From Synergistota bacterium (lineage in GTDB: Bacteria > Synergistota > GBS-1): a stretch of 46,893 nucleotides of DNA. Every line of letters starts with the position of its first letter. Position 1 is the stretch's first letter. The notes under the pieces are model-generated. The model was not told the origin of the DNA. It was given only the letters and a program-made list of their open reading frames with translations, and searched no databases. The translations under genes were made by a program, and so were the position numbers. Of this stretch, positions 16,977 to 33,031 are shown piece after piece. The stretch is from positions 1 through 46,893 of the forward strand of contig JAGHDO010000038.1 in the NCBI GenBank assembly GCA_021159885.1, in the 5' to 3' direction.

Positions 16977-17702
16977 ATGAAGTCTCTTCTATTGAGATTG
17001 GATATCAGGGTAAGAATGGTATTTTTCTTCGCTTTCGCGCTTATAATGGCTACAGCTAAGAGCTGGGTTTCTATGGCTGTTGGACTATTCTTCGTCGTTT
17101 TTCTGTCTCTTATAAGCGGTATTTCCTTTCGGAAGCTGATAAAGAATCTCCTTTTGTTTGAGGGGCTCCTCGTTTTTCTGCTCCTTTTTCTTCCGTTTAC
17201 CTATCCGGGTGAGGTTATCTTCAGGCTCGGTCTCCTTGGAATAACGAGAGAAGGAGTGGAGGAAGCTCTTCTCATATTTTCAAGATCTTCAGTAATTCTC
17301 TTTGGAAGTATCGTCTTTGTTTCCTCCACGGATCTGTTTACGTTGATTCATGCTCTTTATAGACTTCGATTTCCCTCCAAGCTTGTTGAGATAGCCTTCT
17401 TCACCATCAGGTATATAAGCGTTGTGGAAAGAGAGTATAAGGCTTTGAGGAAGGCGATGAAGGCAAGGGCTTTTAAGCCGGGAACGAATTTTCACACTTA
17501 TAAGAGCTATGCCTATCTTCTCGGCATGCTTATGGTCAGAAGTTATGATAGGGCTCAGAGGGTTTATAAGGCGATGTTGGCGAGGGGATACAGGGGGAAT
17601 TTCCCGGTATATAGGTCTTTCAAGCTCGGTAGAATTGATATATACTTTATACCATCAGCAACGGCTTTCTTAGCGATTCTATCCATTCTCGCGTGGAGGT
17701 AA
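16977..17702 (+). CDS. cbiQ: ECF transporter transmembrane component CbiQ/NikQ
   Basis: Integral membrane coupling subunit of 241 aa. It has 4-5 hydrophobic segments and the two cytoplasmic coupling motifs of the family: a charged segment with EREYKALRKAMKARAFKPG (Ala-Arg-Gly type) and later RVYKAMLARGYRG, which contact the ATPase. The ATG at 16977 follows the previous stop by one base. It joins the CbiM S-component to the ATPase encoded next. Confidence 0.92.
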   Translation: MKSLLLRLDIRVRMVFFFAFALIMATAKSWVSMAVGLFFVVFLSLISGISFRKLIKNLLLFEGLLVFLLLFLPFTYPGEVIFRLGLLGITREGVEEALLIFSRSSVILFGSIVFVSSTDLFTLIHALYRLRFPSKLVEIAFFTIRYISVVEREYKALRKAMKARAFKPGTNFHTYKSYAYLLGMLMVRSYDRAQRVYKAMLARGYRGNFPVYRSFKLGRIDIYFIPSATAFLAILSILAWR

Positions 17703-17711
17703 GATAAGCTA

Positions 17712-18371
17712 TTGGAAAAGACGCTTTTGAAGTTGAAAAATATCTTCTTTTCATATGGCGATAAGCCCTTGCTTGAGGGGTTGAACTTTGAGCTTCGATA
17801 TGGAGAGCGCGTGGGTATCACGGGGTATAACGGTGCAGGAAAGACCACAATGGTGGAGATAGCTATGGGCTTTCTTAAGCCCCAAAAGGGAAGCATTCTT
17901 TTTAACGGCAGACCTTTAGAAGATGAGAACGACTTTTATGAGCTCAGAAAAAGCGTAGGCTACGTTTTTCAAGATCCCGATGATCAGCTTTTCTGCCCTA
18001 CCGTTTTTGAAGATGTAGCCTTTGGACCGCTTAATCTTGGCTTAAGGGGGAAGGAGGTTGAGGAAAGAGTAAATGAAGTTCTGAGAAAACTCGGGATTTT
18101 GCATCTTAAGGATAAGATAACCTACAAGCTTTCTGGAGGAGAAAAACGGCTCGTCTCTATAGCTGCGGTTCTCGCTATGGAACCGGAAGGATTGATACTT
18201 GATGAGCCTATAAATGGCTTAGATGAGGAGGCGCGAGCGAGAGTGGAACATATACTTGTTTCTTTATCTAAATCCATCGTTGTTATCTCTCACGATGTCT
18301 CCTTCCTCAAGCGCGTGTGTGGGAGGGTACTCCGCCTTGAATCTGGAAAATTGGTTGAGCTTCATTTATAA
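17712..18371 (+). CDS. cbiO: ECF transporter ATPase CbiO/NikO
   Basis: ABC ATPase of 219 aa, TTG start at 17712 with GGAGG at 17695-17699. Walker A GYNGAGKT is at 38-45, Q-loop Gln87 (VFQDPDDQLF), signature LSGGE at 140-144, Walker B LILDEP at 161-166 and H-loop His194. The VFQDPDDQLFCPTV segment is typical of the ECF/CbiO group. It is shorter than many CbiO proteins (about 270 aa) because the C-terminal tail after the H-loop is only 25 residues; all catalytic parts are present. Energises metal uptake with CbiM and CbiQ. Confidence 0.94.
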   Translation: MEKTLLKLKNIFFSYGDKPLLEGLNFELRYGERVGITGYNGAGKTTMVEIAMGFLKPQKGSILFNGRPLEDENDFYELRKSVGYVFQDPDDQLFCPTVFEDVAFGPLNLGLRGKEVEERVNEVLRKLGILHLKDKITYKLSGGEKRLVSIAAVLAMEPEGLILDEPINGLDEEARARVEHILVSLSKSIVVISHDVSFLKRVCGRVLRLESGKLVELHL

Positions 18372-18372
18372 G

Positions 18373-19284
18373 GTGCCAGAAGATAAGGGTATTAAGTTTT
18401 CCTTCAAGCTCCTTCAGAAGGATGAGAATGTTATCGTTGAAAGGGTAACCTTCAGAAGCCTTTATGAGAGCCCCTATGAGGTTAACAACTTCGTTTATGT
18501 TGATCTTTTTACCCCTATAAAGGAAAGGGCTTCCGCTTTCCTCCTTTTTATTCACGGGCTTGGTCTTGGCAGAAAGAAGAAGCGTTTGTATGCTCTTCTT
18601 CCGGAAAGAATAGCTCGCTTTGGCGTGACAAGCGCCTTTTTGGCTCTTCCCTATCATCTTGAGCGAACGCCCCCCGGCAAGACGAGCTCCAAATGGTTTT
18701 CTGACTTTAATGATGTGGAAACAGCCGCCTTTTATCATCAGGCCGTTGTTGATATAATTGCGTCTGTTTCCGCTCTCTCGAGAGGCAGGATTCCATTTAT
18801 AGCCGGCGTTAGCCTCGGAGCTATGATTTCGGTTATAGCTCTTGCCGTTGATGAGCGATTAAGAGGAGGGTTTCTCATTCTCGGCGGAGGGAATTATGAG
18901 AGGATAATATGGAAAAGCCTTACCAGATTTATGGTAAATGAGACCGGGTGTAGCAGAAAGATATGTCATCGGGTTTATAAAAGGTTTTCTGACTATCTTG
19001 AGATGGTGAAAAAAGCGGGCTCATGGAGGAAAGTTCTACCCCCTAAGATATGCTTTCTCTTTGAGCCTCTCACCTTCGCTCCTTTTGCAAAGAGGAAGGA
19101 AGTGGTTATGATAAACGCTCTTTTTGATATGGTAATTCCGCGAGCTTCCGCTTTAGAGTTATGGAACGCTCTTGGAAGACCGGAAATTCACTGGCTTCCT
19201 TCAACGCACGGTGGCGCCGTTTTCTGGGGGAGAAAGATATCCAAGATAATCTTAAGGAAACTTAAGAAAGCCGATAGATTCTAA
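18373..19284 (+). CDS. Alpha/beta hydrolase family protein
   Basis: About 303 aa from GTG 18373, one base after the cbiO stop; the frame remains open upstream inside cbiO, so TTG 18355 is an alternative. The alpha/beta hydrolase features are an oxyanion-hole segment LLFIHGLGLGR (about 57-67), the nucleophile elbow GVSLGAM with Ser147, and a late STHGGA (catalytic His). No signal peptide or transmembrane segment. Substrate unknown. Its position at the end of the metal-uptake operon has no obvious meaning. The last 33 bases overlap the 3' end of the convergent aminopeptidase gene. Confidence 0.75.
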   Translation: MPEDKGIKFSFKLLQKDENVIVERVTFRSLYESPYEVNNFVYVDLFTPIKERASAFLLFIHGLGLGRKKKRLYALLPERIARFGVTSAFLALPYHLERTPPGKTSSKWFSDFNDVETAAFYHQAVVDIIASVSALSRGRIPFIAGVSLGAMISVIALAVDERLRGGFLILGGGNYERIIWKSLTRFMVNETGCSRKICHRVYKRFSDYLEMVKKAGSWRKVLPPKICFLFEPLTFAPFAKRKEVVMINALFDMVIPRASALELWNALGRPEIHWLPSTHGGAVFWGRKISKIILRKLKKADRF

Positions 19285-20889
19285 ACTTTCGATTAGCTCT
19301 AAGAGTTTTTTAGAGTTTATCCTTCCGTATTCTTCCTCAAGTGCCTTCACGCTAAGCTTTCGGGGAAAAATCTCTCCCAACATTAAAAGCTCGTGAAGCT
19401 GGGATGCTCCCTCTTTTTCTTTAAAGATATCCTCGAGCATTTCTCCTGTTTCTCTGTCTACTTCTTTTATCTCCTTGGGTAAGAGAACCCCCTTTTTCGT
19501 CCACTTAATCCACGGTTCTCTCTTAAGCTCTCGCCCGATCTTTATTCCGAGAAAGCGGGAATCCCGCGCTAATCCATTATATATAAGCTTTCTTGAAACC
19601 TTGGCGTCTTTATCCAGACTCATTTCTCCTATGAGCTTCATGGTATATCCTCTTGCAAATCTTTCAAGCTTCTTTTTCTTTGCCTTGCTTAAGAAAAGCG
19701 CGGTTGATAGCGTTGCTCTTCCGATTCTCCTTAACGAATCTTTGCTAAGCTTTTCTATCGAATCCTCACTCGAGTGATAGAATTTATCGGGAAGCGTAAT
19801 GGCTATTGTTGAGGGAATCTCAAAAAAATTAAAAATGTCATGATCGCTTCCCATCATATAGGGCATGCCCTTTATGCCAAGATAGTATTCCATAATTCCC
19901 TCTATCATGGAGAACCTCGATAGAGGAGTTCTTCTGAGCGTTATCTTGGATTCGGATCTATCGGGACTTCCCCCTACCATATCGAGATTCAATACACAGT
20001 AGTATTCGTCTAACTTAGCGAATTTCTCTATAAAGAGGCTTGTTCCAAAATATTCCGGGACCCATAAAAGGAGAAAGCCGAATCTGAAGCTTGGATCGTA
20101 GGCTTTCCTTAGAACTCTTGCTATTTCAAGGTTCATGGAAGCTCCGCTTGCGTTGTCATTAGCGCCTGGTTTTGGATGGCATATATGTGCTGTAAAGACG
20201 ATATATGGTGGATTTCCTATCTTGGCTAAAAGAACGGGAAGCGTTTCCCTATTGTAAAATCTGGTTCTAATCTTCGCTTTTATTCTTACCCTTCTTCTTT
20301 CGTGTTTTATCCTTTCTAAAATCTTTTTGGCTTTGCTTTCGCTTAAAGCTATTGCAAGAATAGCACCTTGCTTTAGCTCGCTTTTCGTGAGGAAAAGCCC
20401 TATATATGGGAAAGCATCTCCCGTCCCTTCTCGATAAGCAATGAAGAGGGAAGCTTTGTTTTTTAAGGCTTTTTCGTATCCCTCTCTCCTTTTTGTTTTT
20501 GCGAGAACTATCCTTCCTTTGGCTTTTTTCCAGTCTTTTTCGCTCTCTATTGCAAGTATTTCGCCCTCTGTCCCCCCAGGTGGCGATCCGGGAAGAACGA
20601 GGAGGGGAGTTCCAGATGTGCTTAAGCTTTCTCCATCGATCGCTACCTCCCCGCTTATTAGCTCCCATGGCGTGGGAGACTTGAGCGTGAGGAAAGAGCT
20701 TTTCCCGTCATAGGTTCCCTCTATAAGTTCGTTTTTCACTCCCGCGGAATCGAGCTCTTCTTTAAGGTACCCAACCGCTTTTAAAAGCTCTTCCGATCCC
20801 TGTATTCTATGGTATCTCGAGATTTCGTGCACTCCTTCGATTATCCTTTCCACGTTGAGAGGCGCGCTTTCCTTAAAGTAGGTTTTCAT
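19252..20889 (-). CDS. M28-like zinc aminopeptidase (DUF4910-type)
   Basis: A 545-aa protein without signal peptide, ATG 20889 with GGAGGT upstream. The zinc peptidase core shows HICHPKPGANDNASG (His235 or His238 and Asp245), VPEYFGT (catalytic Glu279), NLDMVGG (Asp303) and KFYHSSEDS (His372), in the order of co-catalytic M28 enzymes. A PA-like insert (about 75-200) sits between the N-terminal helix and the core, and a C-terminal region (about 470-545) looks like a winged-helix domain. This layout matches DUF4910 aminopeptidase-like proteins. A cytosolic peptidase role is likely; specificity is unknown. Confidence 0.82.
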   Translation of the reverse strand: MKTYFKESAPLNVERIIEGVHEISRYHRIQGSEELLKAVGYLKEELDSAGVKNELIEGTYDGKSSFLTLKSPTPWELISGEVAIDGESLSTSGTPLLVLPGSPPGGTEGEILAIESEKDWKKAKGRIVLAKTKRREGYEKALKNKASLFIAYREGTGDAFPYIGLFLTKSELKQGAILAIALSESKAKKILERIKHERRRVRIKAKIRTRFYNRETLPVLLAKIGNPPYIVFTAHICHPKPGANDNASGASMNLEIARVLRKAYDPSFRFGFLLLWVPEYFGTSLFIEKFAKLDEYYCVLNLDMVGGSPDRSESKITLRRTPLSRFSMIEGIMEYYLGIKGMPYMMGSDHDIFNFFEIPSTIAITLPDKFYHSSEDSIEKLSKDSLRRIGRATLSTALFLSKAKKKKLERFARGYTMKLIGEMSLDKDAKVSRKLIYNGLARDSRFLGIKIGRELKREPWIKWTKKGVLLPKEIKEVDRETGEMLEDIFKEKEGASQLHELLMLGEIFPRKLSVKALEEEYGRINSKKLLELIESLESIGFLKFP

Positions 20890-20916
20890 TTCTCGATTAC
20901 CTCCTTTTTGAGAGAA

Positions 20917-20944
20917 ATGATATCACAATTCTTGTTATTTCCAA
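20917..20944 (-). promoter_or_regulatory. Candidate promoter for the M28-like peptidase
   Basis: Minus strand TTGGAA (20939-20944), 16 bases, TATCAT (20917-20922). It overlaps the opposite-facing element at 20932-20960. Moderate match only. Confidence 0.4.
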
Positions 20945-20960
20945 ATGGCTATGTTAAACT
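20932..20960 (+). promoter_or_regulatory. Candidate promoter for the coiled-coil protein
   Basis: TTGTTA (20932-20937), 17 bases, TAAACT (20955-20960), about 25 bases before the ATG at 20986 and upstream of its GGGGGTG ribosome site. Moderate match. Confidence 0.4.
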
Positions 20961-20985
20961 TTTTCCCGTAGGGGGTGCGAAATGA

Positions 20986-22113
20986 ATGTTTCCACTAAAG
21001 GTTGATCTTATAAGAAAGCTTGATAAACTGCCCGTTGATATCAAGGAAGTCATGCTTAGCCTTATGGAGTATTTTGAGGTTCTTTCTAAGGATATGGTCA
21101 GAAAGGAGGATTTTAGCAGGCTTGAGGCTATAGTTGGGAAGCTTGCGGAAGCTCAGCTTAATAGTGGAGAGCGTCTGAGCAAACTTGGGGAAGCTGTCAA
21201 TGGTTTGATCGAATCTCATAAGAAAGCAGAAGCTCGTTTGACTCATCTTGAGGAAGCTATAGATAGGCTAACTGAGGCGCAGCGTGAGAGTGAGGTTCGT
21301 TTAAGCAAGCTTGAGGAGACGGTTGGTGCATTGATTGAAGCGCAGCGTAGAAGCGAGGCTCGTCTGGATAGGCTTGAGGAAGCAATAGGCAGGCTAACTG
21401 AGGCTCAGCGTGAGACTGAGCGGAGGTTGAGTGAGTTAGCGGAGGCGCAGGCTAAGGCGGAGGAGCGTTTGAGCAGGCTTGAGGAGGCTATAGGTAAGCT
21501 GACTGAAGCCCAACGCAAGAGCGAGGCACGTTTGAGCAAGCTTGAGGAGACGGTTAGCGCGTTGATTGAAGCGCAGCGTAAAAGTGAGGCTCGCTTGGAC
21601 AAACTTGAGGAGGCAATAGGTAGGCTAACTGAGGCTCAGCGTGAAAGCGAGCAAAAGATCAGTGAGTTGGCGGAAGCGCAAAGGAAAACAGAGCAAGAGA
21701 TAGAGAAGCTCTCTCGCGGTCTTAGGAACCTTAGAGAAGAGGTTGGCGGTCTCGCGAGGAGCTTTTCATATGCTCTTGAAAACGAAGCTTATAGAAGGCT
21801 CCCTGACTATCTGAGGGAGAAATATGGCATAGAGGTTTTGGATAGAATAATACGATTTGATCTTAACGGAGATGAGATAAATCTTTTCACCCGAGCTAAG
21901 GTGAATGGTGAGGAGGTCTTGCTTGTTGGTGAGTCGGTTGTTAAATTTGCGCATGCGCGGGAAATCAAGCTTTTAGAGAGAAAAATGGAGAAGATAAGAA
22001 AGGCATATGGGAAAAAGGTCATTGGAATAATAGTGACTCACTTTGCCAAGACAGGACTTAAGGAGAAGGCGGAGGACCAAGGGCTTATAGTGGTTCAAAG
22101 CTTTGAGTGGTGA
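20986..22113 (+). CDS. Long coiled-coil protein with DUF3782/PD-(D/E)XK nuclease-like C-terminus
   Basis: A 375-aa soluble protein. Residues about 40-245 are a heptad coiled coil made of 21-residue units of the type RLxxLEEAIGRLTEAQRxSEA; two copies of a 77-residue block start at about residues 105 and 182. Residues about 250-375 are globular, with YALENEAYRRLPDYL, DEINLFTRAKVNGEEVLLVGES and KKVIGIIVTHFAKTG. The strand order resembles the DUF3782 / restriction-like nuclease fold, but the usual (D/E)xK is here GES followed by Lys320, so catalysis is doubtful. Such proteins are frequent in archaea and thermophiles and their function is not known. Confidence 0.72.
   Translation: MFPLKVDLIRKLDKLPVDIKEVMLSLMEYFEVLSKDMVRKEDFSRLEAIVGKLAEAQLNSGERLSKLGEAVNGLIESHKKAEARLTHLEEAIDRLTEAQRESEVRLSKLEETVGALIEAQRRSEARLDRLEEAIGRLTEAQRETERRLSELAEAQAKAEERLSRLEEAIGKLTEAQRKSEARLSKLEETVSALIEAQRKSEARLDKLEEAIGRLTEAQRESEQKISELAEAQRKTEQEIEKLSRGLRNLREEVGGLARSFSYALENEAYRRLPDYLREKYGIEVLDRIIRFDLNGDEINLFTRAKVNGEEVLLVGESVVKFAHAREIKLLERKMEKIRKAYGKKVIGIIVTHFAKTGLKEKAEDQGLIVVQSFEW
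21298..21681 (+). repeat. Tandem 231-bp intragenic duplication encoding 77-residue coiled-coil blocks
   Basis: Inside the coiled-coil gene, the block beginning RLSKLEETVGALIEAQ (from 21298) recurs 231 bases later as RLSKLEETVSALIEAQ (from 21529), each followed by an RLDxLEEAIGRLTEAQ unit and a SELAEAQ unit. Unit spacing is 21, 21, 21 then 14 residues in each block, exactly 11 heptads. The nucleotide sequences also stay similar, suggesting fairly recent duplication. Copy 2 runs out near 21681. Confidence 0.75.
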
Positions 22114-22119: not shown

Positions 22120-22695
22120 ATGAGGAGATGGGTATCGTTTTTAACTCTTTTGCTTGTTTTAAGCGGGATAGCGTTTGCGGGTGGGATAAGTAAGGTTTTA
22201 CTAGTGGTGGCGGATAAGTATAGGAATGAAGAGCTTGCTGCCTCACTTGAGGCCGTTCGAGAGGCGGGCTTAAAACCCGTTATAGCTTCAAGCTATGTGG
22301 GAACTCTTCATGGTATGCTGGGGGGAGAAATCAGGTCGGATATAACGCTGGGCGATGTCAATCCACGAGAATATGCTGCGGTGATATTTGTCGGTGGAGT
22401 TGGAGCTCGCGTTTTCTGGGATGATCCTTTAGCTCATAAAATAGCGAGAAGCTTCCATGAGAAAGGAAAGCTTGTTTGCGCTATTTGTATAGCTCCGATT
22501 ACCTTGGCTAAAGCTGGTTTGCTTAAGGGGGTTAGGGCAACCTGCTGGAAAGGGGTGGCCCCACTGCTTGAAAGTCTTGGGGCCGTCTATGAGGATGCTC
22601 TGGTGGTAGAAAGCAATGATATAATAACCGCGAGCGGTCCTCGGGCAGCGGAAGCTTTTAAAGAGGCAATAGCGAGAAAGCTGAGGAAAAGATAG
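22120..22695 (+). CDS. Exported DJ-1/PfpI family protein
   Basis: A 191-aa protein with an N-terminal signal-like segment (about 1-20, ending AFAGG) followed by a DJ-1/PfpI fold: KVLLVVADKYRNEEL with the conserved acidic residue (Glu37 or Glu38), VIFVGGVGA, and the nucleophile elbow AICIAP with Cys123. The residue after Cys123 is Ile instead of the His usual in PfpI-type peptidases, so glyoxalase, chaperone or redox roles are as likely as proteolysis. Export of a DJ-1 protein is less common than cytosolic location. It follows the coiled-coil gene by 6 bases and ends in a hairpin that can terminate transcription. Confidence 0.8.
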   Translation: MRRWVSFLTLLLVLSGIAFAGGISKVLLVVADKYRNEELAASLEAVREAGLKPVIASSYVGTLHGMLGGEIRSDITLGDVNPREYAAVIFVGGVGARVFWDDPLAHKIARSFHEKGKLVCAICIAPITLAKAGLLKGVRATCWKGVAPLLESLGAVYEDALVVESNDIITASGPRAAEAFKEAIARKLRKR

Positions 22696-22732: not shown

Positions 22733-24346
22733 TTACTTTATTATCTTTATCCTTCCGTCGGTCTTCGGGGAGATTTTCCCTCCGAGATGCTTTATATAAT
22801 CCCTCATTATGTCAGGTAGAGTAACCGTGGTGTTATATCCTTTGTATTTCTTAAATATAAAGTACTTATCTCCGCCTTGAGCAAGCCAGCTATTGGTAAT
22901 AACTTTGTATGTAGCTTCGGGGTCTAATGGCATCCATTTTCCATTCTTTAATACCTCGATGCTTTTCACTCTGCTTCCCCATTTGCTTATCCTTCTCCCG
23001 GTGAAAATGGTAGGGGGTTTACTAAGGTCATAAACCACTCTTATCCCGGAAATCTGAAGGAATCCACCAGTAGGTGTCCTTTTCGCAGGATCGTAGTTTT
23101 TGTCGACCAAAGCTGAAGCAGATATTTCAAGGAGTTTCAAAATGTCCTTTCCCTTCATCCTGAATATCACTGCGGTGTTTCCAAAGGGATGAATGGATAT
23201 CAGGGTTTTATAGGATATGGGACCTGCGGGGTAGATCCTGTCTCCCCTTATGCCACCGCCATTTGTTATAGCTATATCTCCATTGAACCTCCATCTCATT
23301 GCATCTGCCAGAAAATCACCAAGGTTGCTCTCCCTACTCCTCACCGTTGATTTTCTAGCGTCTAAGTCCACAGTGCTCACACCGATCTTCTCTGAAAGCC
23401 TTTTTTCCAAGCCCTTAACATAAGGTGCCAAGAAAGCGTTGAGTTCCTTGTCTTCTCCTACGGTTTTATCGAGCAATATGACTTCCCATTTGATTTTTTC
23501 TATTATAGCTTCGCCATCCTTAACCGGCATGTATAACCTTCCGGCATATTTAAGTCTGGCTCCTGCCTGAATTATCACCGTTTTCCAACCGCCTGGTCCA
23601 TTCACTATGTAAGGTTTCTTCGTGAGATCGTGGCTATGGCCCCCGCAGATAAGGGTTATTCCTCTTACTCTCTTGGCAAGCTTTATATCTTCGCTTAAGC
23701 CTATGTGGGTCAAGGCTATTATGACATCAGCTCCCGCTTTTTTGAGAGTGGATACGGCGTTTCTGGCCACCTCAACTAAGTTCTTATTTACCTTTATGGC
23801 ATCTCCTGCGTTTGATATATAAGGTAGATCTGGCGTTATAAGTCCAAAGAAGCCTACTTTCAATCCTCCGAAATTCTTGATTAAATATTTTCTTATTTTA
23901 CCGAGGAGGAAAGGGTCATTTATCTCTATGTTGGTGCAAACTACTGGAAACTTTGCATATTTTAAAGCTTTAGCGTAAATATTGGGGCCTAAGTCAAACT
24001 CGTGGTTTCCTGGAACTGCGGCGTCATAACCAGCTAAGCTCATGCCGAGGTATTCAGGCTTTCCATGATAGTAATAATATAGTGGTCCCATAAGGTCATC
24101 TCCGCCAGAGACGACTATCACGCTGTTGCCGTATAGAGCTCTCGTCGCCTTTATCGCAGTTGCGACTCTACTTAAACCACCTACCATTAGCTTATGTCCG
24201 CCAATTCTCGCCTTAAATGGGGTTATCGCACTCTGCATATCATTTGTCTCTATGACGACCAGGGTTCCTGATTTAGCTATTGCTATACCTGTCAAAGCAG
24301 ATAGGACTATGCTTAATCCCAGAATTACCGCCAGCAGCTTTCTCAT
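22733..24346 (-). CDS. Exported 5'-nucleotidase / metallophosphoesterase (UshA-like)
   Basis: A 537-aa protein with a signal peptide (about 1-24). The N-terminal metallophosphoesterase domain shows SGGDDLMG, GNHEFD (113-118), LTHIG and GGHSHD; the C-terminal nucleotide-binding domain shows ESNLGDFLADAMRW, NGGGIR and SIHPFGN. These are the UshA/5'-nucleotidase family marks, so it probably removes phosphate from nucleotides or related esters outside the inner membrane. Odd point: the first metal motif, normally D-x-H, reads D36-M-Q38. It is the last gene of a six-gene operon and overlaps the acidic protein gene by ATGA. Confidence 0.88.
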   Translation of the reverse strand: MRKLLAVILGLSIVLSALTGIAIAKSGTLVVIETNDMQSAITPFKARIGGHKLMVGGLSRVATAIKATRALYGNSVIVVSGGDDLMGPLYYYYHGKPEYLGMSLAGYDAAVPGNHEFDLGPNIYAKALKYAKFPVVCTNIEINDPFLLGKIRKYLIKNFGGLKVGFFGLITPDLPYISNAGDAIKVNKNLVEVARNAVSTLKKAGADVIIALTHIGLSEDIKLAKRVRGITLICGGHSHDLTKKPYIVNGPGGWKTVIIQAGARLKYAGRLYMPVKDGEAIIEKIKWEVILLDKTVGEDKELNAFLAPYVKGLEKRLSEKIGVSTVDLDARKSTVRSRESNLGDFLADAMRWRFNGDIAITNGGGIRGDRIYPAGPISYKTLISIHPFGNTAVIFRMKGKDILKLLEISASALVDKNYDPAKRTPTGGFLQISGIRVVYDLSKPPTIFTGRRISKWGSRVKSIEVLKNGKWMPLDPEATYKVITNSWLAQGGDKYFIFKKYKGYNTTVTLPDIMRDYIKHLGGKISPKTDGRIKIIK

Positions 24347-24540
24347 GAATCATCACCTCCATCTTCCTCGTCTTCCTCTTCGTCGAGCTCCTCCCCGAGC
24401 TCCCTTAGCTTTGAGAGGAGATCCAACGATGTTATAAACGATGATAGCAGTTCTCTCCTTACAATATCGTTATCTATCTCTATGCTGTCTTCATCTTTAC
24501 CTCTGTATAAGGTTAATATATAGCTTGATGGTTTTATCAT
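24343..24540 (-). CDS. Small acidic-tailed protein of unknown function
   Basis: A 65-aa protein with a beta-like N-terminus (SYILTLYRGKDEDS), an amphipathic middle helix (REllSSFITSLDLLSKLRE region, about 28-48) and a C-terminal tail in which about 12 of the last 16 residues are Asp or Glu. No known family recognised. It is tied on both sides by 4-base ATGA overlaps to the AAA+ ATPase gene before and the 5'-nucleotidase gene after it, which strongly suggests a real product and coupled translation. It might be an adaptor, inhibitor or substrate of the ATPase; this is a guess. Confidence 0.7.
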   Translation of the reverse strand: MIKPSSYILTLYRGKDEDSIEIDNDIVRRELLSSFITSLDLLSKLRELGEELDEEEDEEDGGDDS

Positions 24541-25946
24541 CTCGCTTCACCCCCAAGCTCCCTTATTATCACTGAGCTCATTCCCTTTATCGCCTTTGGT
24601 GTTATCTTTTTAAGCTTCTTTGATAGAAGTATCAGGATGAGTCTCTCCATAGAGTTTTCTAACCCATTTAGGGTATATCCTCCTTCCACCATTTGCTTTT
24701 TCCTAACTGCATCCACTATAAACTCGACGATTTCCTTGTCCTTAAGCGGTTCGAGCATCTTCCTATAGCCAGGCTTCATTCTCGAGATTACCTTGGGAAG
24801 TACGTATTCTGATAGTATGATAACAAGATCGTTCAGCTCAAACGGTGGGACCTCGTATATATCAGCCATCTTTGAGAATGCAGGATGATCCAAACGCTTA
24901 TTTAGCTTATTACCCAGAAGGAACACGGGAGCTTTGCCGAGAAGAAGCCTCGTTCCTGTGTATCTGTCTCTCATCTCTTGTCTGAGATAAGGATCTACTA
25001 TGTGGAAGAGGAATTTTTCTGCTTTATGATTAGCGGTTTCTATATCATCAAACAGCATGCATGGATTTATAACACCGCAGGAAACAACACCCTTTAGCAT
25101 CAGGCCAGCATCTTCTTGGGTTCCAAAAAGGTCCTCTAATACTGCTGGCGATAGGGAGATGGAAAAGAAAGGCCAATCAAGTGCCGTTAGAAGCGAGCTT
25201 ATAAGGGTGCTTTTTCCAGTGCCTGTGGGTCCCACAAGAACGATAGCTTTGCTAATTTCCTCAAAGGCGTTGAGTCTGAAGAATATAAACTTAGCGATCT
25301 TCTCCCTTTGAGGCGTGAGCAAAATCCTCTTTCTCATAAGAGCGAGAACGCTGTCTATATCTCTCTCCGGCAGAAATTCTGTGAGATATGGATAAGATAG
25401 AATATATCTATTTCGAGGATGCTTAAGCTCGAAATCCGTTTCTTCGAAGAAAAGATTGTCCAGCGGAGATGCTCTTTTTATCACCTCGACCGCTTCTGGA
25501 TCTGCCAGCGTTAGAAATTCCAGGAGCCTTACCATTTCTCCGGCTGGCAGTCTTAGGAAGGGATCAAGTTTAATTTCGCGGGAAATTAGCCTCTTTAAGA
25601 TTATGCTTCTGTATGGATGATATCTCAGGATTAAGTAAAGCAGAAATATTTTTTCTCCCTCTACCATGTGTACTATTGCATCGTCCTCTTCATCGAGGAT
25701 CTCATCCAGTTCTTCCTCCGAAAAAACATAGCTTATAAGCGGAAAGACATCCGATGGGGAGATTTCTCCTCCAAGTTCTTCTTTAAGCTCTTCAATATAT
25801 CTCGTTATTCTCTTGTAGGAACCCTCGTTGAGGAAGGGAATCTCTTTAAGCTCTTCCTTCACTTTCTCCAGTGGCTCTCTGGCGTCTGGATAGACACTAT
25901 ATATGTATTTCTCCGTTTCTATACCAGCTTTTATGAAATCAAGCAC
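24537..25946 (-). CDS. AAA+ ATPase with Lon-like module, no protease domain
   Basis: A 469-aa cytoplasmic protein starting at GTG 25946 with GGAGG upstream. An N-terminal all-helical acidic region (about 1-210) has no family I recognise; it includes EEELDEILDEEDD. The AAA+ core follows: Walker A GPTGTGKS (239-246), Walker B CMLFDDIE (296-303), then RYTGTRLL and the sensor-1 strand VFLLGNKLNK (Asn346). The spacing and the GVVSCGVINP-x-x-LFDD stretch recall the Lon AAA module, but the chain ends about 120 residues after sensor 1, with no Ser-Lys protease domain. Substrate unknown. It sits between a class II aldolase gene and a small acidic protein gene. Confidence 0.75.
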   Translation of the reverse strand: MLDFIKAGIETEKYIYSVYPDAREPLEKVKEELKEIPFLNEGSYKRITRYIEELKEELGGEISPSDVFPLISYVFSEEELDEILDEEDDAIVHMVEGEKIFLLYLILRYHPYRSIILKRLISREIKLDPFLRLPAGEMVRLLEFLTLADPEAVEVIKRASPLDNLFFEETDFELKHPRNRYILSYPYLTEFLPERDIDSVLALMRKRILLTPQREKIAKFIFFRLNAFEEISKAIVLVGPTGTGKSTLISSLLTALDWPFFSISLSPAVLEDLFGTQEDAGLMLKGVVSCGVINPCMLFDDIETANHKAEKFLFHIVDPYLRQEMRDRYTGTRLLLGKAPVFLLGNKLNKRLDHPAFSKMADIYEVPPFELNDLVIILSEYVLPKVISRMKPGYRKMLEPLKDKEIVEFIVDAVRKKQMVEGGYTLNGLENSMERLILILLSKKLKKITPKAIKGMSSVIIRELGGEAR

Positions 25947-25964
25947 TCCATTTTCGCCTCCCTT

Positions 25965-26573
25965 TTACCATGTTTTAAGCGTCTTTGGTAGAAATTTTTC
26001 GAGACTTTCGCCCGCTTGCAGCAGGTATAGTGCTATCTTTGCTGAATTCTCAAGCGAGCTACAATAGAAAAATGCTTCTTCTAAGGTTTCCGCTGCGGAA
26101 AAGGCGCCGTGCCCCCTTACCATGATTATCGGATAATCCTTGAGGTACTTAGGTATTTCTTTTGCCATTTCGGTCGACCCAGAGCCAAACTCGAAGGAAA
26201 GAACGGGAACCTTCTTAACATGATAAGCTCCTTCGACATCAACCGGTATTATCTCATCGAGGAGCATTGATAGCGCAGTTGCAGCTACGAGATGAGCGTG
26301 GACTATTGCTAATGCATCTGTGACTCTATAGATCTCTCTGTGAACATGTGATTCCGTAGAAGCTATCGCTATCATTCCGTCATCTTCGGTTAAATTGAGC
26401 TCCACGAGGTCATCTTCTTCGAGAAAGCCCAGCATTGATCCTCTTCTCGTTATTATCATTCTGTTTCCGACGCGCACGCTCATATTTCCGCTGTGGGAGT
26501 TCTGTAAACCAGCTACATACATTGCCCACCCTATTTTCTTAAATTCCGCTAAGCTTTTCTTGTCTATAGCCAC
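25965..26573 (-). CDS. Class II aldolase/adducin family protein (fuculose-phosphate aldolase type)
   Basis: A 202-aa zinc aldolase, GTG start at 26573. The catalytic Glu74 (ASTESHVH) and zinc ligands His92, His94 (VHAHL) and His155 (RGHGAFS) are all present, with SGNMSVR (27-33) for phosphate binding. Such enzymes split ketose-1-phosphates into DHAP and an aldehyde; L-fuculose-1-P, 5-deoxyribulose-1-P and methylthioribulose-1-P aldolases belong here, and the substrate cannot be chosen by eye. The gene overlaps the end of the AOR gene by 10 bases, so an aldolase releasing an aldehyde is translated together with an aldehyde-oxidising enzyme. Confidence 0.87.
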   Translation of the reverse strand: MAIDKKSLAEFKKIGWAMYVAGLQNSHSGNMSVRVGNRMIITRRGSMLGFLEEDDLVELNLTEDDGMIAIASTESHVHREIYRVTDALAIVHAHLVAATALSMLLDEIIPVDVEGAYHVKKVPVLSFEFGSGSTEMAKEIPKYLKDYPIIMVRGHGAFSAAETLEEAFFYCSSLENSAKIALYLLQAGESLEKFLPKTLKTW

Positions 26574-28324
26574 TTAGGCTCACCTTCTTTAAATAACTCT
26601 GCGATCTTTTCTTTTGCTGGTATGCCCTTTCGATCCCAACCCCTGTATTCATAATATTCCTGAAGCATTTCTTCAAGAGGAATACCCTTTTTTATTCTGT
26701 CTGGGAGAGTATCATCTTCGTGTGAAAAGCCAAGGCGCAAATTTATAAGCCTTTCAAGGTTGAAAATCCTTTCTCCTATCTTTTGAAGGTCAGAGGAAGT
26801 ATACTCAACTTCCTCTATAACACTTAGAGCTCTTGCCCAGTGGTGCAATGAGGTTGAAAGGAAAGCAAATCTACAGATTATGAGAGAGTCAGCTATAGCT
26901 CCAATGTCTTGTGCTCTTGCAACGTGTGCTCCCTTGCCAAGAGCCTGAAATCTGTTTATTCTTCTCGGCACACCGTATATCTCGAACGAGACGGAAAACC
27001 CCCCGCGTAGATGACACGCTCCTCTGTTCGAAGTCGCGTAGCCCAGTCCCATTCCCAAAGCTCCTCTGGGGTCATAAGCGGGGAGCTCCAGTCCCTTAAC
27101 ATGCATGGCGAATTCCCTTCCACCGGTAATTTCTGAGGCTTTCTTGACGCCGAGCGAAAGAATCTCACCGCGTTCCTTTCTGAACGCTATATCCTCAACG
27201 AGGCTTAATATTCCATTCGTATTGCCAAACTCAACCCCCAAATCGGCTATGCCTCTTTCCTTAAGCTCCATTGCAAATCCTATCACCGAGCCTAAGGATA
27301 TCGTGTCCACGCCGAGGAGGTTTGCCATTTCGTTTAGGGTTATGATAAACGGAAGATCATCTATCTCAAGGTTTGCTCCAAGCGCCCACAGAGTTTCAAA
27401 TTCAGGACCGCTGACTTTTCTTCCATTGAGTTCACATACTCTCTCGCACAGTACTGGACAGCCGAAGCAACCACTTCTGCTTTTTAGAAAGCCTTTCTTT
27501 AGTTTCTCTCCACCGATGGCTTCTGCATTTTTGAAAAATCCTTTCTGGAAGTTTCTCGTTCCCAAAGTCTTAAACGAGTTTATTACTCTCATGGTTCCTG
27601 CGGTTCCGAGAGATGGTAGTAGTTTTGATGTCAGAGGGTGTGTGGTTATAAGACGCATGATTTCATACCTGTAATCGCTAAGTTTCTCGGACCTTTGAGT
27701 TCTTTTCGTCTTTCTTCCGTGCACCGCTATCGCTTTAAGGTTTTTACTTCCGAAAACAGCACCGGCTCCTCCTCTTCCAAATGCTCTTTTACCATTTTCC
27801 ATAACGCAGGCAAATCTAACGGTGTTTTCTCCAGCGGGACCTATCGAAATCACGGAGAGACCCTTTCCGTGTTCTTCTTTGAGCTTTTCGCTTGTTTTAA
27901 GCGTGTCGCTTCCCCAAAGATTGCGAGCACTTCTTACCTCAATACTGCTTTCATCTATCAAAATATACACGGGTTCATGAGCTTTGCCTTCTATTATCAT
28001 AGCGTCATACCCTGCCCTTTTAAGTAAAGTTCCGAAAGTTCCTCCCACGTTTGAATCGAGTATTGTTCCCGTAAGAGGAGAGCGGGTTGTTAGGCTAACC
28101 CTGCCTGTCATAGGTAAGGGGGAGTCGGTCAATGGTCCCGTTGCGATAATTACCGGATTTTCCTCGCTTAGTGGATCGGGAGAATCATTTCCTATCCTTT
28201 CTGAGAAAAGATATGTTCCCAACCCTCTTCCGCCTATAAATCTTTCGCGGACATCCTTCTTTATCGGTATCTCTTCTATCTTCCCGCTTGACAGATTTAT
28301 GTATACAATTTTTCCTTCTTTCAT
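26564..28324 (-). CDS. aor: Tungsten-type aldehyde:ferredoxin oxidoreductase (AOR) 1
   Basis: A 586-aa oxidoreductase; ATG 28324 is chosen because GGAGGGACC stands directly before it (an in-frame ATG lies at 28345). Domain order is typical: N-terminal GGRGLGTYL, the tungstopterin-binding GRGGAGAVFGSKNLKAIAV (183-201), the [4Fe-4S] cysteines Cys286, Cys289 and Cys293 (CFGCPVLC), DPRGALGMGLGYATSNRGACH (about 418-437) and the final cluster ligand Cys484. It oxidises aldehydes to carboxylates with ferredoxin as acceptor, or the reverse. It is cytoplasmic and the second gene of a six-gene operon, overlapping an aldolase gene. Confidence 0.95.
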   Translation of the reverse strand: MKEGKIVYINLSSGKIEEIPIKKDVRERFIGGRGLGTYLFSERIGNDSPDPLSEENPVIIATGPLTDSPLPMTGRVSLTTRSPLTGTILDSNVGGTFGTLLKRAGYDAMIIEGKAHEPVYILIDESSIEVRSARNLWGSDTLKTSEKLKEEHGKGLSVISIGPAGENTVRFACVMENGKRAFGRGGAGAVFGSKNLKAIAVHGRKTKRTQRSEKLSDYRYEIMRLITTHPLTSKLLPSLGTAGTMRVINSFKTLGTRNFQKGFFKNAEAIGGEKLKKGFLKSRSGCFGCPVLCERVCELNGRKVSGPEFETLWALGANLEIDDLPFIITLNEMANLLGVDTISLGSVIGFAMELKERGIADLGVEFGNTNGILSLVEDIAFRKERGEILSLGVKKASEITGGREFAMHVKGLELPAYDPRGALGMGLGYATSNRGACHLRGGFSVSFEIYGVPRRINRFQALGKGAHVARAQDIGAIADSLIICRFAFLSTSLHHWARALSVIEEVEYTSSDLQKIGERIFNLERLINLRLGFSHEDDTLPDRIKKGIPLEEMLQEYYEYRGWDRKGIPAKEKIAELFKEGEPKWL

Positions 28325-28341
28325 GGTCCCTCCTTCCAATC

Positions 28342-29802
28342 TCATCTATATAAGATTTGAAAACGTGCGTGTGCGGGATCCTTTGTGGTAAAGAGTATCC
28401 CGCGCCACGGCGGGATGAGAAAAGAGAGCTTTCTGATATTATTTATGGTTTCTTTATCGGAGTTGAAGTTTTTTGCCAGGATAACGAATTTCGGAATAAG
28501 CTCTTTTAGCTCTTTCAGGCTTAGGTAGGCCCATGGAGAAGCTGGCTCTCCGATTTCTTCACATATATCCGGTGGAAGAACCATTCGGAAGTCCAGATCG
28601 CTTGGGGGTATTAAACCGAGAATTAGCTCCTTTCCTCTCACTCCAAGTGTGAGATCTACTGGCATCACCGCGCTGTAAAAAAGATCCCAGCCCACCTTTC
28701 TTTCTTCTTTAAAAAATCCACCGTTTTTAGCTCTCTTCATAACGGAACCCATCGCTCGCTTCAAGAAAGCTTTAAGTTCGTTCTGGTTCATTTCGCTTAG
28801 ATAATAGGCGTATATTCCGGTGAAGTTGGTCCCTAATATATTGGCATTTCCTCCCACCACGAGATAAAGCTTTCCGGTTAGGAACTTACTGAGTTCATTC
28901 TCGTTTGTGGATAAAGCTTTGTAAAGTTTGTCTATTTCTCCCTTTTTCCTCTTGGGGAGGGTGTTTTTGATTGTTGATATTATCTTATCGCCAGAGACTG
29001 GTACGGCTCCCATAAGAATAATTTTCCCCTTTCCAGGGGGAGAGATGGGGGGTAGCTTACCCTCGCAGACCAGATTTTTAAGTCCCTCACGGGGTTCTAT
29101 TGCACGCAGGTCAAAAATGAATCTTGTCTTTTCATCTCTTCCTTTTCCTTCCAAGATCGAGATCTTTCTCGGTGTTAGCTTGTTCCTCATCCTTAAGTAG
29201 AGGTATACCTGGGGCTTTTTATGAGCTGGAATGAGCCCCTTAAGTCCTCTTGGAGCTTTTGTTTTCCATATGAAGCGTAGTCCGAGCCTAAGTGGATCCA
29301 CTATATTATAAAGAGCTTTTTCATTGTTGCTCAGCATAACATAATCGTTGCCGAAATATGCGTATATCTTTTTATCCTCCATGTCGATGCGATATATCCT
29401 TTTGACTTTTTGAAGCTTCACCCCGGATGCTTTAATTATCTGTAAGGCATTACCGTGTGTTTTTATAATGATAAAAAAGTCTGGCTTGGGGTTTATTTTC
29501 TTTCGAAAGTAGATTGCGCAGGACGCCTCTTTTACGTTTCTGTTTATCATCATCGCTGCGGTTTTAACGTTTTTGAGCTCCTTTTGGGAGAGGTTTCCTA
29601 CGTTAATGGCAAGGTTTTTAAACCAGTTGCCATTTAATATGTTAGTGATTATAGAAACATCGTTTATCTCGAAATATAGTAAGTTCTTTTCGTTTGTTGA
29701 AATAGGAAGAGCGCTTAAGGGGTCTACTTCAAAAGCCCATGAGATATTAATAACCATTAAGATGATAACTCCCGCTACCAAAATTGGTAAGGATCTTTTC
29801 AT
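28342..29802 (-). CDS. Exported protein of unknown function (DUF3352-like)
   Basis: A 486-aa protein with a signal peptide (about 1-23, ending SWA) and no other membrane segment. The rest alternates beta strands and helices, with LLYFEINDVSIITNIL near the N-terminus and a second similar half (KGKIILMGAVPVSG, then LSKFLTGKLYLVVGG). That pattern resembles DUF3352-type two-lobe secreted proteins, but I would not insist on the family. It is the first gene of the AOR/aldolase/AAA+/nucleotidase operon, with a GGAGGT ribosome site and a promoter at 29828-29836. Function unknown. Confidence 0.7.
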   Translation of the reverse strand: MKRSLPILVAGVIILMVINISWAFEVDPLSALPISTNEKNLLYFEINDVSIITNILNGNWFKNLAINVGNLSQKELKNVKTAAMMINRNVKEASCAIYFRKKINPKPDFFIIIKTHGNALQIIKASGVKLQKVKRIYRIDMEDKKIYAYFGNDYVMLSNNEKALYNIVDPLRLGLRFIWKTKAPRGLKGLIPAHKKPQVYLYLRMRNKLTPRKISILEGKGRDEKTRFIFDLRAIEPREGLKNLVCEGKLPPISPPGKGKIILMGAVPVSGDKIISTIKNTLPKRKKGEIDKLYKALSTNENELSKFLTGKLYLVVGGNANILGTNFTGIYAYYLSEMNQNELKAFLKRAMGSVMKRAKNGGFFKEERKVGWDLFYSAVMPVDLTLGVRGKELILGLIPPSDLDFRMVLPPDICEEIGEPASPWAYLSLKELKELIPKFVILAKNFNSDKETINNIRKLSFLIPPWRGILFTTKDPAHARFQILYR

Positions 29803-29827
29803 GCTCTTTCTACCTCCTTTCAGCGGT

Positions 29828-29836
29828 ATTATAACA
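29828..29836 (-). promoter_or_regulatory. Extended -10 promoter of the six-gene operon
   Basis: Minus strand TGTTATAAT, that is a perfect TATAAT (29828-29833) with a TG one base upstream. No good -35 is visible at 16-18 bases. It would start transcription about 20 bases before the exported protein gene. No other promoter was seen before the internal genes down to 22733. Confidence 0.6.
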
Positions 29837-29893: not shown

Positions 29894-30340
29894 ATGAGGA
29901 TTATAGCTCAAAATAGAAAGGCACGTCATGATTATGACATTCTGGAAACATATGAGGCTGGAATAGCGCTTAAGGGAAGCGAGATAAAATCTGTGAGAGA
30001 TGGGAGAGTCAATTTGAAAGATAGCTATGCTAAGGTGAAAGACGGTGAGCTCTGGTTATATGATATGCATATCTCTCCTTATGATAAAGCTTCCTATTTT
30101 AATCACGATCCTTTAAGGCCGAGGAAGCTTCTTTTACACAGGAAAGAAATAAATCGCCTTATGGGAAAGGTTCAGGAGAGGGGCTTGACATTAATACCAT
30201 TAAAAATATATATAAATGACAGAGGCTGGGCAAAGGTTGAGCTTGCGCTGGCACGGGGGCGTAAACTTCACGACAAAAGAAAGAAGATTATAGAAAGGGA
30301 GATAAGAAGGGAGCTTGAAAGAGCTTTAAGAAGGAGATAA
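29894..30340 (+). CDS. smpB: SsrA-binding protein SmpB
   Basis: A 148-aa tmRNA partner in ribosome rescue. It has the family order: [12 protein letters not shown] at the N-terminus, [39 protein letters not shown], the KLLLHRKEI region, [32 protein letters not shown] and the basic C-terminal tail that enters the mRNA channel. It lies 4 bases before the tmRNA gene. The start has no ribosome site (see the promoter entry). Confidence 0.97.
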
Positions 30341-30344
30341 GAGT

Positions 30345-30699
30345 GGGGGCGAATGGTTTCGACGGCACATGGGCGTGCGCGGAGAGCGAGCCGAGGTCCC
30401 GTAACCTCGTAAAACAACGGGGCGAAAGAATAAATGCCGATTACGGTTATGCAATGGCTGCTTAATTAAAGCGGCCCATCCTCTCAGCCTGACGCCGCTA
30501 AGGCTGGGAGGGTGAAAGGGGAAGCGGCTTTTCTCCAGAGGGTTGCCCCGCCTTCTGGAGAGAAAACAATTGGGGCTTTTCGGTAAGGGATCCTGCCCCT
30601 GGGAGACCTTGCCGAGAAAGTAAAAACAGGGGCTACGCTCGTAGGCGCTCCGGCATTATCATGTGTCGGACGCGGGTTCGAATCCCGCCGCCTCCACCA
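30345..30699 (+). ncRNA. ssrA: Transfer-messenger RNA (tmRNA, ssrA)
   Basis: One-piece tmRNA of 355 bases. The 5' GGGGGCG (30345-30351) pairs with CGCCTCC near the 3' end (7 bp with one wobble), followed by ACCA (30696-30699, encoded). The tRNA-like half contains GGTTCGAATCC. The tag frame reads NADYGYAMAA and stops at TAA 30463-30465; the resume codon is probably AAT 30433, but an upstream codon is possible. The CCTCGTAAAA segment before the tag matches other tmRNAs. A T-run (30700-30705) follows the gene. Works with SmpB encoded just upstream to free stalled ribosomes and tag the nascent protein for degradation. Confidence 0.96.
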
Positions 30700-30718
30700 T
30701 TTTTTCTTCTGTGCTGAC

Positions 30719-31201
30719 ATGATTTCTCAAGCTTATCTTAGGGTTCTCTATAAGCTATATGGGAGGCTAAACAATAGTGATGTGAACTGGGTTATTACGG
30801 GGAGCTTTGGTTTTGCTCTTCAGGGCGTTCCCATTAATCCTCGTGATATTGACATTCAAACTGATAAAGAGGGGGCTTATAAAATCGAACGTCTCTTTTC
30901 TGAGTTTGTAGCTAGTCCTGTTCGGTTTTCCTCGGCGGAGAACATTCGCTCCTATTTCGGAGTCCTTGTGATTGACGGGATTAAGGTTGAGATAATGGGG
31001 GATATTCAGAAGAGGGTTGATGATAGATGGGAACCTCCAGTAGACATAAGCAAATATAAGCGTCTTGTAGATGTTGAGGGTATGAAAATCCCAGTTTTAG
31101 ATCTGGAGTACGAGTATCAAGCTTATCTTAAGCTGGGGAGGGTTGAAAGGGCGAGAATGGTGAGGAATTTTTTGGATGGGAAAGGGGAAGAGAGGATTTA
31201 A
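30719..31201 (+). CDS. Nucleotidyltransferase-fold protein
   Basis: A 160-aa protein with minimal polymerase-beta-type nucleotidyltransferase motifs: WVITGSFGFALQG (helix-loop with GS), RDIDIQ (the DxD metal pair) and VEIMGD (third acidic residue). It resembles antitoxin/AbiEii-like or lincosamide-type transferases, but no HEPN partner gene is next to it; instead it abuts the second AOR gene with no gap. No Shine-Dalgarno is seen before ATG 30719 and no own promoter was found, so it may depend on read-through from ssrA. Substrate unknown. Confidence 0.7.
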   Translation: MISQAYLRVLYKLYGRLNNSDVNWVITGSFGFALQGVPINPRDIDIQTDKEGAYKIERLFSEFVASPVRFSSAENIRSYFGVLVIDGIKVEIMGDIQKRVDDRWEPPVDISKYKRLVDVEGMKIPVLDLEYEYQAYLKLGRVERARMVRNFLDGKGEERI

Positions 31202-33031
31202 ATGCATGGCTACGGGGGTAAAATTTTATTCATTGATCTAAGCCGCCGGAAGCTTCAGGAAGAGCCAACGAGCTCTTATCTTGGAACTCTGGGTGGTAGG
31301 GGACTGGGACAGAGGCTTCTTTTTGATCTTTCCTCTCCCTCTATTGATCCCCTCGATGAGGAAAGCGTCATAATCTTGAGTGCGGGAGCGCTTTCCGGTA
31401 CTTCTATGCCCGCGGTTTCGAGACTCTCCGTTGATTTTAAGAACGCGTTAAACTGTGGGGTTGGTTCAGCTAACGTTGGTGGGAGCTTTTCCTCTATGAT
31501 GAAATATGCTGGATACGATGCTATAGTTATAACTGGCAAGGCGGGTTCTCCCATTTATATCTATGTAGATGAGAACGGTGCTTACATTAGGGATGCTTCT
31601 TCTATTTGGGGAATGGATACATGGAACGCTGATTTAACCATAAGAAGGCTTGAAAGCAATGATTCTTTGAGTACGGCGCTTATAGGACCTGCGGGGGAGA
31701 ATCTCGTTAAATTTTCATGTTTGATTGTGGATAGAGGGCGGGCTGCCGGTTATGGTGGAGCTGGGGCGGTCTTTGGCAGCAAGAATTTAAAGGGGATCGC
31801 GGTTAGCGGTTCGAAGCCAATATCGGTTTATGATCCCTCGATATTGAGGAGCGTGGTTAAGCGTCTCTATACCGCCTTTAGAAATAGCGAGGTAGCCAGG
31901 ATTCACTCTGAAGGGGGAACTTTTAAGGCTTATCTTTTGCCTGGGGAAAAAAGACCCCATGGTGTTAGGAATATGTCGGATGAGTTTTATCCAAATGAAA
32001 AGCTTTCTCGTATAAAAAGAGAGCGGTTTGATAAAGAGTTTCTCGTTAAGAGGCTCTCTTGCTTCTCCTGTCCGGTTCGCTGTAGCGCTCTTTACAGGAT
32101 AGATGGTAAGTACTGCGAGGGAATACAGGCTAATATGGTGAGAGCTTTTGGAACGAATCTTGATATCCTTGATCCTCCAACGATCCTGAGGGCTAACCTT
32201 ATGGTTAACTCCTATGGACTTGACTGCGACCAAACTTCCTCTATCATAGCTTGGGCGATAGAGTGCTTTGAGCATGGAATCATAGATGTTGGCGATACCG
32301 GTGGGCTTGAGCTTAGATGGGGAAGAGGAGATGCTATTTTAAAGCTCATAGACATGATAACTCATAAAGAAGGTTTTGGAGCTGTCCTCGCTGATGGACT
32401 TTACGAAGCTGTTAAGAAAATTGGCAGAGGCTCTGAAAGATATGCCATGCTCGTTAAAAAGGTGGGATTGATGGAAGCGGGGATGAGATCTCACAAAGGT
32501 TGGGCTCTTGGAATAATAACCAGCACCAAGGGGTGCGGGCACACGAGAGGAGCTCCTGCCCTTGAGTTCAGAAGGATTTCTCCCGATATCTCGAGAAAGG
32601 TTTTGGGAATAGGAGACATAAGCGATCCCACTTCCTATGACAACAAGCCGGAACTCGTCGTCTGGCAGGAAAGATACAAAGCCATCATAGATTCGATGGG
32701 AATATGTAGCTTAATGAGTATGTGGCAAGATGTGAATCTATATCGCTTGGAGGATATATCTGAGGCCTATCGTGCATTAACAGGAATAAGTTTTTCTCCG
32801 GATGAGCTTATGGATTTTGGTGAAAGCTTGCAGACCCTTGAGAGAAAATTCAATGGCATTCATGCACATTTCGACAGAAAAGATGATTATCCACCTTTAA
32901 AGCTCGTTGATATTCCAGTGAGCGAAGGCGTATATAAGGGAGAGAGGCTTAACCTTGTCGAATGGGATAAGATGCTGAATAGATATTATGAGCTTCATCG
33001 CTGGAATTGCGAGGATGGATTGCCTTCTTAA
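31202..33031 (+). CDS. Tungsten-type aldehyde:ferredoxin oxidoreductase (AOR) 2
   Basis: A 609-aa AOR-family enzyme starting at ATG 31202 directly after the previous stop. GGRGLGQRLL is at 31-40, the pterin motif YGGAGAVFGSKNLKGIAV at 184-201, and Cys287, Cys290 and Cys294 (CFSCPVRC) bind the [4Fe-4S] cluster, with a late GICSLM Cys as fourth ligand. It is clearly diverged from AOR 1 (different substrate channel segments, for example MEAGMRSHKGWALGIITSTKG in place of the DPRGALGMGLGYATSNRG block). Neither AOR has a companion ferredoxin or AorA-type iron-sulfur gene beside it. Substrate is not known. Confidence 0.93.
   Translation: MHGYGGKILFIDLSRRKLQEEPTSSYLGTLGGRGLGQRLLFDLSSPSIDPLDEESVIILSAGALSGTSMPAVSRLSVDFKNALNCGVGSANVGGSFSSMMKYAGYDAIVITGKAGSPIYIYVDENGAYIRDASSIWGMDTWNADLTIRRLESNDSLSTALIGPAGENLVKFSCLIVDRGRAAGYGGAGAVFGSKNLKGIAVSGSKPISVYDPSILRSVVKRLYTAFRNSEVARIHSEGGTFKAYLLPGEKRPHGVRNMSDEFYPNEKLSRIKRERFDKEFLVKRLSCFSCPVRCSALYRIDGKYCEGIQANMVRAFGTNLDILDPPTILRANLMVNSYGLDCDQTSSIIAWAIECFEHGIIDVGDTGGLELRWGRGDAILKLIDMITHKEGFGAVLADGLYEAVKKIGRGSERYAMLVKKVGLMEAGMRSHKGWALGIITSTKGCGHTRGAPALEFRRISPDISRKVLGIGDISDPTSYDNKPELVVWQERYKAIIDSMGICSLMSMWQDVNLYRLEDISEAYRALTGISFSPDELMDFGESLQTLERKFNGIHAHFDRKDDYPPLKLVDIPVSEGVYKGERLNLVEWDKMLNRYYELHRWNCEDGLPS

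Follow-up and report, generated by a model that had tools for sequence, protein, structure and literature searches.

What could bring together an aldehyde:ferredoxin oxidoreductase (AOR), a sugar-phosphate aldolase, an AAA+ ATPase and a small acidic protein in one operon? The question is raised by positions 22,733 to 29,836 of contig JAGHDO010000038.1 (assembly GCA_021159885.1) of a Synergistota bacterium from GBS-1, which we take to be class GBS-1 of Synergistota. The window analysed is this whole contig of 46,893 nucleotides (C38 of genome G000; 1.77 Mb, 97% complete). Four genomes of the class are in our collection (G000, G001, G002, G003), of which G000, G002 and G003 are near-complete; the relatives' loci are L041 (G002), L042 (G003) and L043 (G001, on a broken contig). 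The conserved unit comprises five genes and is a real, lineage-specific operon. We propose, with about as much belief as doubt, that it serves an aldolase/AOR dihydroxyacetone phosphate (DHAP) shunt assisted by an AAA+/acidic protein accessory pair.

Organisation and conservation of the operon

Open reading frame calls and reading of the sequence confirmed six minus-strand genes, one promoter element and a convergent neighbour:

29828..29836, minus strand: extended -10 TGTTATAAT of the operon promoter, from sequence reading
28342..29802, minus strand: gene 1, exported 486-residue protein with a signal-peptide-like N-terminus
26564..28324 (open reading frame to 28345), minus strand: gene 2, tungsten-type AOR (AFOR_N/AFOR_C)
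25965..26573, minus strand: gene 3, class II (FucA-type) sugar-phosphate aldolase, GTG start (Pfam Aldolase_II, PF00596)
24537..25946, minus strand: gene 4, AAA+ ATPase related to the Lon ATPase domain, GTG start (Pfam AAA, PF00004)
24343..24540, minus strand: gene 5, 65-residue acidic protein with orthologues at the same place in relatives
22733..24346, minus strand: gene 6, exported UshA-like 5'-nucleotidase/metallophosphatase (5_nucleotid_C, PF02872; Metallophos, PF00149)
22120..22695, plus strand: convergent exported DJ-1/PfpI gene (PF01965)

A first-pass annotation had described these six genes as coupled, with four tight junctions. All six are present, and it is all five junctions that are tight, the genes either overlapping or standing no more than 18 bases apart. 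Gene 1 and the AOR gene are separated by 17 bases, or overlap by 4 bases if AOR starts at 28345; the start at 28324 is more likely because GGAGGG stands before it. The AOR stop is overlapped by 10 bases at the GTG start of the aldolase gene, 18 bases separate the aldolase and AAA+ genes, and ATGA overlaps join the AAA+ gene to the acidic protein gene and the latter to the nucleotidase gene.

The extended -10 that had been placed at 29828 is indeed there. TGTTATAAT has no good -35 and was not listed by a consensus promoter scan; together with a strong ribosome-binding site it also precedes the gene 1 orthologue in G002 and G003. The divergent gene upstream of gene 1 is smpB here and pdxS (named from sequence) in these two relatives. 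Internal promoters had been considered as a possible split between the AOR/aldolase pair and the ATPase/nucleotidase part. Promoter-like matches inside the operon numbered 18 against 12.8 +/- 3.9 expected from shuffling, about the background rate, and a scan of the operon found no terminator-like site at the gene junctions on the minus strand.

G000, G002 and G003 share the gene order exported protein-AOR-aldolase-AAA+-acidic protein, and the contig of G001 holds the downstream end only, with the tail of the AAA+ gene plus the acidic protein gene. Identity of the relatives' orthologues to the window's proteins is 73-75% for the aldolase, 66-69% for AOR, 53-54% (G002 and G003) for the AAA+ protein, 45-50% (over 42-52 residues) for the acidic protein and 30-31% for the exported protein. 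The 10-base AOR/aldolase overlap is constant in the three genera represented by G000, G002 and G003, and the AAA+/acidic overlap measures 4, 4, 4 and 7 bases across the four genomes. The DJ-1/PfpI gene, 61-65% identical in L041, L042 and L043, closes the unit downstream in 4/4 genomes; in the relatives it directly follows the acidic protein gene. The AOR, aldolase, AAA+ and acidic protein genes are thus not scattered in related genera, which would have spoken against the first-pass annotation; they stay together with their overlaps, in support of it.

The sixth member of its set did not hold: none of the three relatives (G001, G002, G003) has a match to the nucleotidase. We therefore rejected its membership of the module; it is a local addition, gained here or lost in the relatives, outside the shared unit. 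Other apparent insertions lie nearby. The abhydrolase and DJ-1 genes, adjacent in G001-G003, are separated here by an M28 peptidase gene (minus strand) and a coiled-coil repeat protein gene (plus strand, 20986-22113) within 19252-22113. Further out, at 14964-18371, genes for a DUF4198 protein and a CbiM/NikM-type energy-coupling factor (ECF) metal transporter, then the abhydrolase gene, are kept beside the operon in relatives.

The exported 486-residue protein, conserved in the operon, had been left out of the earlier scheme. It stands first wherever that end of the operon is visible (three genomes) and is fast evolving. Neither it nor the 65-residue protein has a Pfam match, and it has none in NCBIfam. 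Its structural model is of low confidence (predicted local distance difference test, pLDDT, 53; predicted template modelling score, pTM, 0.41) and gave no PDB match at E <= 0.001. No defence system was detected by PADLOC.

A distinct tungsten-type AOR

Gene 2 encodes, by its sequence, a tungsten-type AOR for which a tungsten-bis-pterin cofactor and aldehyde oxidation are predicted. The protein carries both AFOR_N and AFOR_C and matches AORs of solved structure over its full length (E = 1.8e-131 to PDB 9mqx, 1.6e-128 to 1aor). In the alignment C286, C289, C293 and C484 stand opposite the 9mqx cysteines at [4Fe-4S] ligand positions; their assignment as cluster ligands follows Pyrococcus AOR. GPExE and NRGACH, both conserved motifs, are present. 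The second pterin-site motif (residues 479-484) is a variant, DSLI(I/V)C instead of DxLGxC, in all three orthologues. Across 188 genomes of the phylum, these AORs form a group of their own: other AORs reach 510 bits at most, against ~1,197 bits for those of the class.

The source genome has six AOR-family genes. One of them (31202-33031) lies in the window itself, at the end of a consecutive plus-strand series (29894-33031) of smpB, transfer-messenger RNA (30345-30699), a nucleotidyltransferase-like gene (30719-31201, PF10706) and this second AOR gene, whose start touches the stop of the nucleotidyltransferase-like gene.

The aldolase and a proposed route from deoxy-sugars

The aldolase aligns with Thermus FucA (2fk5, E = 1.1e-29) and with E. 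coli-type FucA. E74, H92, H94 and H155 are invariant and most FucA phosphate-site residues are also kept; the functions presumed for these residues are those in E. coli FucA. None of the three near-complete genomes has a second Aldolase_II protein, and within the phylum orthologues of the aldolase at this level were found in this class only. Each of these genomes also encodes one MtnA-type isomerase (465 bits against the TIGR00512 cut-off of 279) and one methylthioadenosine (MTA) phosphorylase (MTAP; 310 bits against the TIGR01694 cut-off of 275), the latter on C54 in G000 and 81-83% identical to its G002 and G003 orthologues.

Phosphorylase, isomerase and class II aldolase together form an established route to DHAP and acetaldehyde (PMC6079011). 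In E. coli the fate of the aldehyde depends on conditions: acetaldehyde goes to ethanol or, via AdhE, to acetate (PMC10986504). Because MtnA, MTA phosphorylase and a single class II aldolase are encoded, such a DHAP-shunt route from 5'-deoxyadenosine and MTA can be drawn here. The FucA-type aldolase would split a 1-phospho-ketose into DHAP and an aldehyde. The likeliest substrates would be 5-deoxyribulose-1-phosphate and methylthioribulose-1-phosphate, which the MTA phosphorylase and MtnA, both encoded outside the operon, would make from 5'-deoxyadenosine and MTA. The dedicated, translationally coupled AOR would then oxidise the aldehyde to its acid and pass the electrons to ferredoxin, so that in a phosphorylase-type DHAP shunt AOR would take the place of an alcohol dehydrogenase or AdhE in receiving the aldehyde. 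Both the aldolase substrate and the coupling of the two reactions are what we infer from this gene set. The operon probably serves the disposal of deoxy-sugar waste from radical-SAM and polyamine chemistry.

A deoxyadenosine or MTA shunt had already been guessed at in the first-pass annotation. It holds on paper as far as the encoded upstream enzymes and the single class II aldolase go, and has to be drawn leaving out the UshA-type nucleotidase. Little is known in anaerobes of the fate of the aldehyde after disposal of 5'-deoxyadenosine and MTA, and the overlap of the aldolase and AOR genes suggests a route keeping the electrons as reduced ferredoxin. A search of open-access literature returned no paper pairing AOR with a class II aldolase.

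In this genome only, a 5'-deoxyadenosine/MTA-deaminase-like gene overlaps mtnA by 14 bases (L090, 6399-8679). It has no close copy in the relatives, and in G003 mtnA is directly followed by alaS.

The AAA+ ATPase and the acidic protein

The AAA+ protein matches PF00004 (1.2e-6) and Lon (6e-8). A helical N-terminal region is followed by the part that matches the Lon AAA+ module (residues ~210-390, E ~1e-8), and the protein ends after the AAA+ small domain, having neither the Lon N-domain (LAN) nor the Ser/Lys protease domain. Aligned at 20% identity with the genome's own Lon, it keeps Walker A and has DD or ED at Walker B. In this same alignment of ~20% identity, the six residues holding Lon's aromatic pore loop (pore loop 1) are absent, and neither the arginine finger nor the sensor-2 arginine was seen. 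A MoxR class was considered and rejected: the best models are PF00004 and Lon, and AAA_5 reaches 21.5 bits against a cut-off of 22. The AlphaFold model has a pLDDT of 43 and was not used for fold search.

The family was not found elsewhere in the phylum, where other matches are Lon or weak AAA, nor in viral contigs, plasmids or 392 relatives including other phyla; two exact peptide patterns run over genome contigs gave none outside the class, a search that distant relatives may escape. Within the limits of these searches, the family is known from this class only.

Its partner, the 65-residue protein (isoelectric point ~4.05), has an acidic tail and a conserved N-terminal (M/V)(I/L)KPxxYI; orthologues of 52-57 residues stand at the same position in G001, G002 and G003. 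Such features might be those of an adaptor peptide.

The first-pass annotation had the pair maturing or remodelling one of the enzymes. Remodelling now looks doubtful: with the pore loop, arginine finger and sensor-2 arginine apparently gone, a threading unfoldase is unlikely, and a clamp, loader or scaffold that depends on ATP is more probable. With CoxD as the model, an ATP-driven accessory to AOR or the aldolase seems the most probable role. CoxD, the closest precedent in function, is an AAA+ ATPase from the same gene cluster as CO dehydrogenase and is needed for the Mo/Cu site of that enzyme (PMC3471820). The AAA+ and acidic proteins would probably act as an ATP-driven accessory pair, either in cofactor loading or activation of AOR or in holding AOR and aldolase together. 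In its most developed form, which we advance only tentatively, an undescribed Lon-related, protease-less AAA+ family with a co-translated acidic adaptor would load or activate the tungsten AOR, or dock it to the aldolase so that reactive (methylthio)acetaldehyde would be handed over without being set free, as the closing stage of an anaerobic DHAP shunt. The open-access papers searched (AOR with MoxR/AAA+ or AAA ATPase) describe no dedicated ATPase for AOR maturation, and the conserved AAA+/peptide pair in an AOR operon offers a concrete candidate.

Alternative readings

Several observations weigh against an aldolase/AOR shunt with an accessory ATPase pair. MtnA and MTAP are widespread, so that their co-occurrence is weak evidence. 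The aldolase is nearest to the uncharacterised model PRK08660 (198.8 bits, cut-off 203), not to a proven 5-deoxyribulose-1-phosphate aldolase, and it obtains scores with FucA-like, decarboxylase and MtnB models as well. Gene clustering, by which known DHAP-shunt cases were found and which the chemistry does not require, is not seen for the three genes: aldolase, mtnA and MTAP are on separate contigs in G000, and in G003 the aldolase is on C2 while mtnA and MTAP lie ~22 kb apart on C1. The AAA+ protein is tied to AOR by the operon alone, and the machinery typical of Lon appears degenerate in it. The class generally preserves its gene order well (as in the mutS/alaS/mtnA region); synteny alone therefore proves less, and the conserved overlaps are more telling than order.

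The doubts about the aldolase open two other possibilities. It could act on sugars of the fuculose-1-phosphate or rhamnulose-1-phosphate type, with AOR converting lactaldehyde to lactate, in 6-deoxyhexose catabolism or to provide lactaldehyde for a cofactor. This agrees with the alignment to the fuculose-1-phosphate aldolase 2fk5 and with scores to methanogen FucA models, and release of DHAP and lactaldehyde is chemically parallel (PMC10986504). We find it unlikely: neither the window nor the relatives' loci showed a recognisable isomerase or kinase for fucose or rhamnose, no genome-wide search having been made. Alternatively, the protein might be a decarboxylase or dehydratase of the superfamily, AOR then handling a different aldehyde or acid, as scores of 68.9 bits to 3-oxo-tetronate-4-phosphate decarboxylase and ~50 bits to MtnB models could suggest. 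Aldolase models match better, however, and the protein retains both the metal histidines and a glutamate aligned with the catalytic one of FucA, making this option distinctly improbable.

Other alternatives concern which genes work together. The AAA+/acidic pair might form a module of its own, such as a stress or regulatory NTPase, sharing the transcript with no functional tie to AOR or aldolase. We regard this as rather unlikely: its adjacency and spacing are constant wherever the region is intact, although the family has no AOR link outside the class, its Lon-type functional residues look degenerate and in this genome the operon has already taken in the nucleotidase as an apparent passenger. 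A single nucleotide-scavenging system of all six genes, which the ATGA overlap of nucleotidase and acidic protein genes might favour, is very improbable, given that three relatives keep the other genes with no match to the nucleotidase and that exported 5'-nucleotidases yield extracellular nucleosides, not 5'-deoxynucleosides.

Comparison with known systems

The operon AOR shares with the tungsten AOR family (Pyrococcus 1aor, PDB 9mqx) its full-length match, four cluster cysteines and pterin-site motifs, and differs by its separate grouping and the DSLI(I/V)C motif. The AAA+ protein resembles the Lon protease ATPase domain over residues ~210-390, whereas N-domain and protease domain are missing and pore loop 1, arginine finger and sensor-2 arginine were not found in the alignment. 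Like the CoxD/MoxR ATPases maturing molybdenum or other metal enzymes, it is encoded in the operon of a molybdenum/tungsten-type enzyme; unlike them it is Lon-like, not MoxR, no match to a VWA/CoxE-type partner was seen among the operon's proteins, and its accessory role is putative.

A likeness to archaeal FucA-like aldolases and to deoxyadenosine recycling in Methanocaldococcus extends to the phosphorylase/MtnA-type steps, the deaminase-like gene of G000 and an aldolase scoring with archaeal models; the host here is bacterial. The end product suggested for Methanocaldococcus is another one, 6-deoxy-5-ketofructose 1-phosphate, as far as the citation in PMC6079011 conveys.

With the DHAP shunt for 5-deoxyribose disposal (drdK/MTAP-drdI/MtnA-drdA/Ald2) the three near-complete genomes have in common an MTA phosphorylase, an MtnA-type isomerase and a FucA-superfamily aldolase, once each, and the products expected are likewise DHAP and an aldehyde. 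They differ in that the genes are unclustered and that the aldolase, besides being closer to PRK08660, comes coupled with AOR, the AAA+ ATPase, the acidic peptide and the exported protein.

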